Source: Akkermansiaceae bacterium (lineage in GTDB: Bacteria; Verrucomicrobiota; Verrucomicrobiia; Verrucomicrobiales; Akkermansiaceae). From it: 47,998 nucleotides of DNA. The stretch lies in NCBI GenBank assembly GCA_947491475.1, contig CANLKN010000017.1, positions 1-47,998 of the forward strand, given 5' to 3'. The notes beneath the pieces were generated by a model. The model did no database searches and had not been told where the DNA came from. It saw nothing but the letters and a program-made list of their open reading frames with translations. Each line of letters opens with the position of its first letter. Position 1 is the stretch's first letter. Below are positions 22,957-28,856 of this stretch, one piece after another. The position numbers and the translations under genes were made by a program.

Positions 22957-25641
<2,685 letters not shown>

Positions 25642-26234
25642 GGGGGCGGATGGATGGCAGAGGAGGCGCGGTTTGTCCAGCATCGGAGGGAAAGGCGGGC
25701 ACCGTTCTCCCGGCAATCCAAAAGAAATCGTTTCCGCCTTATCCTTCCCGCCTGCGGACATTTCCTGGAAAGCTCCCCGCTTTTCACTCCGGTTCCCATC
25801 CTCGTCCCCGCCGCCGGGACCTCCCCCGGCTGCCATCCCGTGCTCTCCCAGCCAATTATCCGTACCCCGGCTTCCTCCGCATCAGTAGAACTTGCCCGCA
25901 CGCGTCGCAGCGGTTCCGGAAATCCGTTCCCGCAGACGGGGGCCTCGTTTTTCACTGCCAACCCGCCGCAATCACTCTGCGCGCACTCCGCCACACCCGC
26001 AATCAGGCCGACCGCCGCCTCGCCGGATTGTTCAGACGCTTCGCCAAAGGCGTCTGCGCCCATCCGGATTTCGGCGCTGATTCCCCCTTCTACCGCTACC
26101 TCGGCTTCATCCCCCACAGCGGGAGCCGCACCGGCCGCCCGCGCAAGCGCAAGATCTGAGTGCAAGCCAACGTGGCACGGGCATCCTGCCAGGAGCCTCT
26201 TCTTCTTCATTCAAAAATCAAAGTTCAACACTCA
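25642..26234. other. Gene-free stretch upstream of valS, holding the left island repeat
   Basis: No complete gene is visible. From 25642 to about 25879 I see nothing recognisable apart from the valS leader. From 25880 to 26159 the plus strand has the tail of a possible decayed gene. Its last ~60 codons read sensibly (LFRRFAKGVCAHPDFGADSP, FYRYLGF, TGRPRKRKI then stop; the last part has an AT-hook-like GRPRKRK). From 26121 onward the sequence belongs to the left arm of the inverted repeat. Confidence 0.5.
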
Positions 26235-26248
26235 TCAATCGTCAATCC
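25880..26248. repeat. Left arm of the long inverted repeat bounding the accessory island
   Basis: 26121-26248 matches the reverse complement of 27901-28026 almost base for base. Homology continues outward at lower identity (25880-25925 against 28063-28110), with about 150 bases missing from the right copy. The arm contains the end of a decayed reading frame, a REP-like palindrome (26171-26192) and the A/T-rich word-like repeat at 26208-26248. Confidence 0.85.
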
Positions 26249-26627
26249 ACCTCACGCCACCATCGCCTTTTCCACCGCCGCCCGCCCCCGCAAGCCACGC
26301 GCGACAAGTTAAGGACGCTGTGCCTTGAATCCCTATCGAATCCCGCAGCCGCCATCCGCCTTCAAACTGCCGGAGTTCATGCTTCAGCATGCCCCGCAGG
26401 GCGCAGTGCAAGAACTGAAGAATCAGCGCGAACTCCGGACGTCTTCCCCACGGATCAAGCGGCCGGAGTTCATCATATGGTGAATCTCGATATGCGGATG
26501 TGATCGGCACACAAAGACTGAGTGCCCTCGGTGGGTTGGAATCCTCGCGTGATACAACCAACATCATCCGCACCTTGCCACCGGCACCAAGATCAACTCG
26601 ATACACTTCTCCCGGCTTAGTCGTCAT
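26235..26627 (-). pseudogene. MazF/PemK-family toxin with a replaced, truncated C-terminus
   Basis: From the ATG at 26627 (TTG at 26639 is an alternative) the protein starts as a MazF/PemK-like toxin, an mRNA endoribonuclease: KPGEVYRVDLGAGGKVRMML, VVSREDSNPPRALSLCVPIT, SAYRDSPY. After about 55 residues the family's C-terminal strands are missing. What follows (DELRPLDPWGRRPEFALILQ, FLHCALRGMLKHELRQFEGG) is unlike MazF and contains short palindromes (CATGCTTCAGCATG around 26380). The frame then runs into the left island repeat and ends in glycine-rich sequence. The toxin is therefore probably inactive. Its start overlaps the end of the antitoxin gene, the usual arrangement of a coupled toxin-antitoxin pair. 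Confidence 0.68.
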
Positions 26628-26844
26628 AGCATGTATCAAGTGCCGCTTGTCTTGCCATAGCCGAACGCAAAATATCCGAATCAGATGGGATCTCTACTGC
26701 GAAGGGCAAGCCACGCCGCATCTTCACCTGCGTAAGGAACATCCGAATCGCCTCGGTGGTCGAAATACCCAGGCACTCAAATACATTCTCCGCTTCCTCC
26801 TTGAGGCGCGGCTCCACTCTAGCTCGGACAACTGCTTCTTTCAT
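26617..26844 (-). CDS. RelB/DinJ-family antitoxin
   Basis: A 75-residue ribbon-helix-helix antitoxin. MKEAVVRARVEPRLKEEAEN, VFECLGISTTEAIRMFLTQV and the tail RRGLPFAVEIPSD are typical of the RelB/DinJ family, which binds its own operator as a dimer and neutralises a partner toxin. I prefer the ATG at 26844; an ATG at 26862 would add six residues. It overlaps the downstream toxin gene by 11 bases. RelB/DinJ proteins usually pair with RelE/YafQ toxins, so pairing with a MazF/PemK-type toxin is a mixed combination. With the toxin truncated, it is probably an orphan antitoxin. Confidence 0.85.
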   Translation of the reverse strand: MKEAVVRARVEPRLKEEAENVFECLGISTTEAIRMFLTQVKMRRGLPFAVEIPSDSDILRSAMARQAALDTCYDD

Positions 26845-26915
26845 AGCCCGAATGTAGCGCATGCAGGCTACGGCGCAGTGATTATTTTTAGCGAACGTCG
26901 AGGCCTGGCAACCCG

Positions 26916-27368
26916 CTACCGGTCGCGCCCCTCCGCTTCAGGTTGAGGTTGCTCGCCACCCTCCGGCTCAACCACGGGGAGCGTAGCGGGTTGTCCAGTG
27001 CCGGGTTGTTCGCTTGGGTCTTCGTATTCAGATTCAAGGTCGGCTTCAGTGAAGATCTGCAAAGGCACCCCGTCACCAGCTTCAGATGCTTCGAGTTCCT
27101 CCCATAGAATCTCTGCACCGTCCTCAAATTCGTCGTAAATAGGAATGAGGTCAGAAACACCAATGAACGCATGAGGCCCTGTAAAAGCTCTATCCCCAGT
27201 CCTTGCGTCGGACAACCCCATCTCTACTGCCCTTCGGAACGCCGTCCGCCAGTCGTTGGCTCTAATGAGGCGGTAGTTGTTCCAATAGGAGCTTCGGCTG
27301 GAATCGGGCTGCTTCTCTAAGAGGCCGGCAATCCACCACCCTGTAGGACTAGTTGCAGGCTTCTTCAT
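26916..27368 (-). CDS. DUF4288-like protein
   Basis: A 150-residue cytoplasmic protein. The N-terminal ~90 residues (GWWIAGLLEKQPDSSRSSYW, NNYRLIRANDWRTAFRRAVE, FIGVSDLIPIYDEFEDGAEI) resemble the DUF4288 family, small stand-alone proteins often found in integron cassettes and other mobile regions. The last 60 residues are acidic, proline-rich and probably disordered. The start at 27368 (MKKPATSPTG) is the only good ATG. The sequence GTTCGCTAA followed by RAA lies shortly upstream (27383-27392 on the minus strand) and again after this gene (26889-26897), which could mark cassette borders. Function is unknown. Confidence 0.6.
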   Translation of the reverse strand: MKKPATSPTGWWIAGLLEKQPDSSRSSYWNNYRLIRANDWRTAFRRAVEMGLSDARTGDRAFTGPHAFIGVSDLIPIYDEFEDGAEILWEELEASEAGDGVPLQIFTEADLESEYEDPSEQPGTGQPATLPVVEPEGGEQPQPEAEGRDR

Positions 27369-27600
27369 AGAATGAGTTTTTCTTAGCGAACAGTTTTATT
27401 GAACAGCGCGCCGTATTTGTCCTGCAAATGCTGCACGCTGTATAAGCAGGGCAAATGCGGCATAGAGGGGCAGGATTCTGGGCACACCATTCATCGCGGT
27501 GATTTCTATTTTTCCCAAGGAGAACCCGCAAGACAAAAATGGATGAGGCGCTGGAGGATGTGGTGAGGTTTTGGGCGGTGCGCGGAACAGGCAAGTCCGG
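27369..27600. other. Spacer between the DUF4288-like gene and the integrase remnant
   Basis: These 232 bases hold no convincing gene. I looked for attC/attI core sites (GTTRRRY) on the minus strand and found none that is clear; the closest are the two GTTCGCT boxes noted for the DUF4288-like gene. Confidence 0.4.
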
Positions 27601-27833
27601 TCAGTCGAGGTCCAGCGGACTGGGTGCGCCGGCTCCGGGACGTTTCATGACGTGAAGGTAGATCATGGTGGCAAAGTGCTTTGGGCAGCGGGACGATGCG
27701 GTGTCTGCCGCCCTTGCCATCATGGATGGTGATGGTGCCCTGACCGAGATCGAGATCCTTGACGCGAAGACGTAGGGTTTCCGCGAGGTGCAGACCGGAG
27801 CCGTGCATGAGCTGGGTGGCTGAGGCTATTCAA
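27601..27833 (-). pseudogene. Decayed tyrosine recombinase, integron-integrase type
   Basis: Two fragments of a tyrosine recombinase are left. The first, through the ATG at 27808, reads ATQLMHGSGLHLAETLRLRV, KDLDLGQGTITIHDGKGGRH and RIVPLP, the start of the catalytic domain. The second, in another frame from 27666 to the stop at 27601, reads MIYLHVMKRPGAGAPSPLDL. It contains the catalytic tyrosine context and the PG-x-G-x-x-SPLD tail seen in integron integrases. About 100 residues between them are deleted. The position of the first catalytic arginine (usually G-L/M-R-L/I-x-E) is histidine here (GLHLAE). The N-terminal half is missing and replaced by the A/T-rich repeat. It cannot be active. 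The integron-integrase subtype rests mainly on the tail. Confidence 0.72.
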
Positions 27834-27938
27834 AATCAAAAATCAAAAATCGTCATTCATCAATCGTCAATCAAGCGGGAAGCGGCGAAAGAGGAGAGAG
27901 ATTGACGATTGATGATTGTTGAACTTTGATTTTTGAAT
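27828..27938. repeat. A/T-rich word-like repeat pair forming a long hairpin
   Basis: 27828-27872 and 27900-27938 are near-perfect inverted copies built of TCAAAAATCAAAG / TCATCAATCGTCAATC words, with a 27-base purine-rich loop between them. The right half is the outer end of the right island arm, and a third copy is at 26208-26248. Confidence 0.8.
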
Positions 27939-28355
27939 GGAAGAAGAAGAGGCTCCGGGCAGGATGCCCGTGCCACGTTGGCTTGCACTCAGATCTTGCG
28001 CTTGCGCGGGCGGCCGGTGCGGCTCCGGAAGGTGAGGAAGTGTCTGGCGCGGTCGAGGGACCGGGTTTGCGGAACTGCTGCGTCGTGTATGGGCAAGTTT
28101 TGCTGAAATGGAGTGGAGGAGGGGACGTCGCAAAATGGAAACGACGATGGTTTTTATGCGGGGCGCGGCTGTCGCATGTGCTAAGCCCGCTGGACTGCTT
28201 GTAGCGCGGCATGTGCGGAGAAGACCGGAGGAATTTCTGACCAGCGCGGGTGCATCAACGGGCCATCGGGCACCGGTGAAATTTTCCCTCGCTCCGACCT
28301 TGCCACGGTGGCGGCCAGCGCCTTGACTGCCGGCCGCATCCCACCCTTTCCCACC
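27834..28355. other. Gene-free stretch holding the right island repeat
   Basis: From 27834 to 28110 the DNA is made of repeat sequences. From 28111 to 28355 I see no gene, terminator or promoter that can be supported. Confidence 0.5.
27901..28110. repeat. Right arm of the long inverted repeat bounding the accessory island
   Basis: Reverse complement of the left arm: 27901-28026 is nearly identical to 26121-26248, and 28063-28110 is the diverged outer part. It includes a REP-like palindrome (27957-27977) and the same GRPRKRKI-stop reading on the minus strand. Confidence 0.85.
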
Positions 28356-28856
28356 GTGAAAGCCCACGAACTTTACTCCGCAGTCGATCCCGCCCTGGTC
28401 TCTGAAATCCTCGATTGGTTCCGTGCCAACGACCGGAATGTTTACAAGTCGGCCGTCGCCACGCTCGCCGGAAACCGCAAACTCCGGCCGGTCTTCATCC
28501 AGAAAAAACCGCTCGTCGATCAATACGCGTGGATCCACAAAACCCTCAAGCTAAACGCCTGCAACGTCATCGGCGAACAGCTGCTCCAAGCCTACCTGAT
28601 GGCTGCCCAGCAATCGATGCTCGGCATGTTCTGCGACGGCCTCGGCATCCCGCACGATGGCAAGGGCTCGGTGGTCGGCGATCTGCCGAAAAAACTCGAT
28701 GCTGAACGCCTTGCCGCGACCATCGACCGCCTCGTCGGCCTTTTCGATCCCAATTTATTCACTCTCTACCTCCACTGCTTCAACATGCAGGTCCCCGGCG
28801 GTTGGCCGGAACTCACGGAAAAACTCGCTTCCGACGAGCGTCTCAAGCTCGCTTGA
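28356..28856 (+). CDS. Conserved hypothetical protein, function unknown
   Basis: A 166-residue soluble protein. I chose the GTG at 28356 (MKAHELYSAVDPALVSEILD); the frame is open further upstream from a GTG at 28308, but that part is not protein-like. It is mostly helical: WFRANDRNVYKSAVATLAGN, KTLKLNACNVIGEQLLQAYL, MAAQQSMLGMFCDGLGIPHD, RLAATIDRLVGLFDPNLFTL. There is no signal peptide or membrane segment. I do not recognise the family; the sequence looks like a maintained gene with a normal codon pattern. It converges with the DUF3592-like gene after 15 bases. Confidence 0.65.
   Translation: MKAHELYSAVDPALVSEILDWFRANDRNVYKSAVATLAGNRKLRPVFIQKKPLVDQYAWIHKTLKLNACNVIGEQLLQAYLMAAQQSMLGMFCDGLGIPHDGKGSVVGDLPKKLDAERLAATIDRLVGLFDPNLFTLYLHCFNMQVPGGWPELTEKLASDERLKLA

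Follow-up and report, generated by a model that had tools for sequence, protein, structure and literature searches.

A probable dismantled reverse integron between two inverted decayed gene copies, with an attC family that doubles as coding sequence

What lies between two long inverted repeats that face each other on a contig of an Akkermansiaceae bacterium, and what are the repeats themselves? The window considered here (the whole stretch of DNA that was analysed, 47,998 nucleotides of contig CANLKN010000017.1, hereafter C17) belongs to a host genome available as a 3.89 Mb MAG in 182 contigs. From its sequence, the segment enclosed by the repeats had been predicted to be a decayed mobile or integron-like unit, with a repeated gene tail as its borders. 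The features collected in Table 1 very probably represent a dismantled reverse chromosomal integron, situated between two inverted decayed gene copies, and whose attC family doubles as coding sequence.

Table 1. Features of the segment, with positions in the window
Feature	Positions	Strand	Remarks
Left arm, outer part	25875..26159	+	Decayed gene-family copy; middle and C-terminus kept (...FGADSPFYRYLGFIPHSGSRTGRPRKRKI, then stop)
Left arm, near-identical part	26122..26247	+	Gene tail, REP and half A/T hairpin
REP-like palindrome core GTGGCNCGGGCATCCTGCC	26172..26190	+	13 genome copies with at most 1 mismatch
Dispersed repeat, ~105-bp unit	26370..26472	-	Takes the place of the mazF 3' half
mazF/pemK toxin gene, 5' part only	26473..26639	-	PemK/MazF match below Pfam cut-off
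relB/dinJ antitoxin gene, intact	26617..26862	-	RelB E 1.8e-11; second cassette, with the truncated mazF
attC, 125 nt	26890..27014	-	R'' AGCGAAC (27014-27008), R' GTTCGCT (26896-26890), long imperfect hairpin between
Coding part of attC	26916..27014	-	Last 32 codons and stop of the DUF4288 gene (SEQPGTGQPATLPVVEPEGGEQPQPEAEGRDR, then stop)
DUF4288-domain cassette gene, 150 aa	26916..27368	-	Pfam 27.5 bits, cut-off 27.0
attI-like crossover box GTTCGCT	27385..27391	-	Adjoins the intI remnant
Integron-integrase remnant	27601..27834	-	Start missing, C-terminus MIYLHVMKRPGAGAPSPLD intact
A/T-rich hairpin repeat	27836..27936	.	~38-nt arms, variable loop; abuts the integrase remnant
Right arm, near-identical part	27900..28026	-	Matches the left arm
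Right arm, second decayed copy	27989..28113	-	N-terminus fused to C-terminus via a different internal deletion

Remains of an integron

Among ten recombinase models compared, the integrase remnant matches the integron-integrase family TIGR02249 best (E 5e-15), with a score that lies far below the family cut-off because the remnant is truncated. Relative to G013, it is made of two pieces joined across an internal deletion of about 370 bp near 27673, and it has the same C-terminus as the intact G013 integrase, which is accompanied by a cassette array running in the same direction. Homology with relatives over the intI-attI region stops at the GTTCGCT box at 27391-27385 or slightly past it (27389-27376). 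The first cassette gene, coding for a DUF4288-domain protein, has an 85% identical counterpart in G002, the match stopping no more than a few bases away from the R'' box of attC. The attC itself is 80-90% identical to attCs of relatives, the fold of its strand is surpassed by only 1 of 200 shuffles (z -3.1), and 14 aligned attC sites have in common an arm of 18 pairs in which unpaired bases are confined to one side. In the second cassette, mazF breaks at 26473, exactly at the start of the 105-bp repeat, and the rest of its open reading frame is repeat, so that RelB is complete and MazF incomplete. In G043 (88% identical) and G021, the same relB-mazF pair is found directly after an attC, and intact mazF genes are present in cassettes or loci of G043, G021, G047 and G049.

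Taken as a whole, the segment holds an intI (as a remnant only), an attI-like junction, an attC, and cassettes exchangeable between att sites. The intI remnant, the attI box, the DUF4288 gene and relB follow one another in this order, all on the minus strand and as in G013, which is the layout of a reverse integron, and intact integron platforms as well as the same cassettes are found in relatives. The toxin-antitoxin pair, cassette gene and integrase remnant had been correctly assigned to the minus strand, although the MazF open reading frame proves to be a chimera and the remnant two joined pieces; likewise, the diagnosis of a decayed mobile or integron-like unit stands for the integron (integrase family, attI-like junction, attC and two cassettes) and falls for the arms as mobile borders. 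According to the history that these remains suggest, a reverse chromosomal integron would once have stood here, with intI, attI, and then cassettes in one direction. Its intI would then have been deprived of its start and of about 370 bp of internal sequence, mazF would have had its 3' half replaced by a dispersed repeat, all cassettes further on would have disappeared, and what was left would now lie between two inverted copies of a lineage-specific gene, each of which decayed independently.

Several other loci can be mentioned in this respect. More integron debris, as integrase-like pieces and a tailless attC of the same family (family A, see below), lies elsewhere in the host genome (G000:C34:11648-12526, C64, C26, C76:223-342). 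The DUF4288 cassette of G002 (C149) is associated with another attC, and its product ends in a tail of 10 residues, not 32, which represents a natural tail swap. At about 2.18-2.23 Mb of G004:C1 lies a large array of cassettes, in which one other attC family accounts for at least 40 sites, and the G004 integrase, at 2.2526 Mb, is divergent, so that both integron orientations exist in one genus.

A shared tail encoded in attC

The attC begins at codon 119 of the DUF4288 gene, whose stop codon is located 32 codons into the site, in the 3' arm of the hairpin, the next gene beginning 54 or 72 nt after it, according to which of two candidate start codons is used. Is such an ending peculiar to this gene? 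A protein search with the DUF4288 product revealed about 50 places, in long open frames, that match only its last 35-40 residues. The attC family was then searched by DNA, in order to avoid a frame bias. This family (family A, to which the attC of the window belongs) is present in 31 of the 73 genomes of the genus and, outside the genus, in 110 of 289 genomes and 32 of 50 genera of the order Verrucomicrobiales. Within the genus, 51 of 60 sites are entered in the frame of R'' (AGC-GAA-CAA), with a stop 30-32 codons in (p = 2e-16). The same rule is obeyed by 52 of the 59 sites outside it (p = 3e-18), where the median number of open codons upstream is 192, 15 and 19 in the three frames. The proteins upstream of the 51 genus sites form 46 unrelated clusters, and the tailed proteins total 103, in 89 unrelated clusters. 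Their tail consensus, AEQAGAGQPATRPESKSEGSDKPQPESEGRSR, contains nearly no hydrophobic residues, and no Cys, Trp or Tyr. In 51 of the 55 genus sites where it could be measured, the length from R'' to the stop is a whole number of codons, the length from the stop to the core varying by single bases: indels in the coding part of attC are mostly frame-preserving.

Does this rule simply follow from the way attC sites are built? Other attC families were sought family by family, as a strict perfect-box scan of the arrays gave almost nothing because array boxes are hybrids. Family B, whose 49 sites come nearly all from G004 arrays, is distributed over frames 0, 1, 2 and none as 10/15/3/21 (A versus B, p = 7e-12), and no frame rule was found in families C and E; the 32-codon rule is not a trivial outcome of attC structure. 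Two smaller families, D and F, are mostly in frame 0, with tails of 6-10 codons, and frame-0 entry may thus be partly general, beyond family A.

The tailed proteins also differ from other cassette products in their N-termini. An export signal, as called by a simple and crude hydrophobic-segment rule, is carried by 41 of 52 tailed proteins versus 39 of 79 proteins of cassettes with other attCs (p = 9e-4), and by 37 of 52 in the out-of-genus tailed set; the DUF4288 protein of the window has none. SignalP rates of 11-14% have been published for cassette proteins (PMC10963911, PMC9668308), but methods differ and only the internal comparison counts.

Most likely, translation of attC keeps the hairpin open and passes ribosomes on, and the tail peptide mainly needs to be harmless. 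A family A cassette gene has no stop before attC, is read across the 5' half of the site in a single constant frame, and stops in the 3' arm of the hairpin; ribosomes crossing attC would hold the mRNA hairpin open, and be released near the start of the next cassette, while the tail would form a harmless, disordered and hydrophilic extension, best tolerated by exported proteins. The pN/pS ratio in the tail centre is 0.73 (0.88 and 1.52 in the other frames): selection on the tail peptide itself is weak at best, and this value agrees more with the opening of the hairpin than with a strict peptide signal. In view of the export bias, the peptide may still have a role of its own. It is only as a tentative proposal that the 32-residue tail can be called selected and functional, the integrons of Verrucomicrobiales adding a common C-terminal peptide to captured genes, chiefly those of exported proteins, as a tag or as a hairpin-opener.

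The tail could also be a neutral by-product, a reading that is quite possible but not the one favored here: R'' reads GAA and not a TAA stop (in xxCGAAC, the frame-0 codon is GAA), so that genes would merely run to the next stop. The frame-0 entry and short tails of families D and F agree with this, as does the pN/pS of 0.73. Family B, however, has the same GAA in R'' and yet no frame preference, and the preservation of the frame over a length of 96 nt, the enrichment in export signals among tailed proteins, and the composition of the tail, almost devoid of hydrophobic residues, also argue against a mere by-product.

The inverted arms

The near-identical parts of the arms, inverted and 1.65 kb apart, agree at 124 of 127 columns (2 mismatches, 1 gap), and their longest exact inverted match extends over 69 nt, as compared with at most 18 nt in 50 shuffles. 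More diverged homology continues outward, with 44 of 57 positions identical between 25875-25931 and 28057-28113. Both arms contain the ...SRTGRPRKRKI tail followed by a stop, the TGGCACGGGCATCCTGCC palindrome, and an A/T-rich repeat. In all these respects, the description given in the original prediction was accurate. The inner part is more alike than the outer one (98% versus 77% identity; Fisher p = 2e-5, with a breakpoint chosen by eye), which suggests that the tail, REP and A/T repeats may have been duplicated late, or homogenised late by gene conversion.

What, then, are the arms made of? Each consists of a pseudogene from a genus-level family, then of a palindrome of REP type and of an A/T hairpin repeat. 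In the window, the family is represented at 25965-26159 (+) and 27989-28113 (-). Whole relatives of the arm gene are proteins of about 120 aa (MSLLHNKP...FVTAWRKFAPD...EDCSFYRALGFVPKSEQRRGRPRKPK), characterized by the motif YRALGFVPKSERKSG, and occur as dispersed and diverged copies, up to 21 per genome (21 in G003, 9 in G047, 5 in G013 and 5 in G016). Across 388 sampled genomes of the phylum, the family was found in 2 of 198 genera, and it has no convincing match in Pfam, NCBIfam or PHROG, apart from one weak sub-threshold Pfam match. The left copy retains ...NQADRRLAGLFRRFAKGVCAHPDFGADSPFYRYLGFIPHSGSRTGRPRKRKI and its stop, the right copy joins an N-terminal SLDRARHFLTF to SRTGRPRKRKI and a stop, and the internal deletions differ between the two. 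The family was also considered as a repeat element, and rejected as such, its copies being diverged genes with their own terminators; one copy near an intI in G016 was judged to be there by chance.

The short repeats of the segment are dispersed as well. A reversed-pattern control for the GTGGCNCGGGCATCCTGCC palindrome gave 0 copies in the genome. The A/T-rich hairpin repeat, without any match in Rfam, is full beside the right arm and only half present beside the left one, and is dispersed in relatives such as G015 (about 20 matches there), often in intergenic positions. The 105-bp repeat is GC-rich, single or in tandem, with 13 matches in the host genome. These elements recall REP and other palindromic intergenic repeats in being short, dispersed palindromes, and are unlike usual REP in that they lie here within or beside pseudogene arms.

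The arms are not transposon ends. The composite arm was found at this locus only, neither elsewhere in the host genome, where only REP or A/T fragments occur, nor in 15 genus relatives. As for the borders originally ascribed to a repeated gene tail, the tail does come from a multi-copy gene family, but the arms, with a composite found only here and different deletions on each side, do not border a mobile unit. The ValRS gene and the gene at 28308 that flank the segment are each conserved in the genus and never adjacent there in the relatives compared, which leaves no definable empty site, and no counterpart of 25689-28275 was found beside either of them in relatives.

Could the facing arms result from the assembly of a metagenome bin, through a chimeric join at the repeat? 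The fragmentation of the MAG into 182 contigs, the length of the inverted repeat (about 127 bp, close to that of short reads) and the non-adjacency of the flanking genes in relatives would be compatible with such an artefact, which is nevertheless very unlikely, as 3 differing positions and distinct internal deletions identify the arms as two real copies, and the integron parts inside join at exact att boundaries. It is also very improbable that a mobile element, since decayed, brought the cassettes with the arms as its terminal inverted repeats: long and near-identical inverted arms do surround foreign-looking genes, and 25689-28275 has no counterpart beside either flank in relatives, but the composite arm is confined to a single locus (the ends of an IS or composite transposon being expected in several copies), its outer part corresponds to a pseudogene whose deletions differ from one arm to the other, no transposase was found among the main ORFs of 25640-28856, the enclosed integron parts have boundaries of their own (attI/attC junctions, REP insertion), and the REP and A/T parts are found alone elsewhere. 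As for a target-site duplication, none was seen by eye at 25875 or 28113, where divergence blurs the true ends. As flanks of a dismantled integron, which is the preferred reading, the arms represent nothing more than ordinary local decay, and may recombine with each other.

Known systems and meaning

The reverse integron plan, with intI, attI and cassettes in one direction, is known from Treponema (PMC3607928, PMC7691350). The locus resembles the reverse chromosomal integron of Treponema denticola by its attC hairpins and by the presence of toxin-antitoxin genes among the cassettes, and differs from it by its dead intI, the two cassettes left, its phylum (Verrucomicrobiota) and its core box (GTTCGCT/GTTCGGC). 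According to reviews, stem-loops formed by attC in the transcript hinder the expression of downstream cassettes, an effect that a short ORF inside attC is able to lift (PMC8876359). As for ORF-11 in attI1 or a short ORF in attC (PMC8876359), translation of an att site would here affect the next cassette. Unlike these separate ORFs, the 32 additional residues belong to the cassette protein itself, in a single frame and in proteins unrelated to one another, across an order. In one large survey, only genes whose overlap with attC was at most 50 nt were retained (PMC7370490), a filter that would discard the tailed genes, which overlap it by 99 nt. In the open-access literature searched, neither a precedent for a shared tail encoded by attC nor a description of Akkermansiaceae integrons was found.

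Integrons, the gene-capture platforms of bacteria, are regarded as neutral carriers, with recombination sites situated outside the genes. The recombination site described here, distributed across an order, forms part of the reading frame, and makes unrelated proteins end alike. Two matters approached only indirectly so far become testable: whether the translation of attC governs how the next cassette is expressed, and whether a protein can be modified by the very act of its capture.
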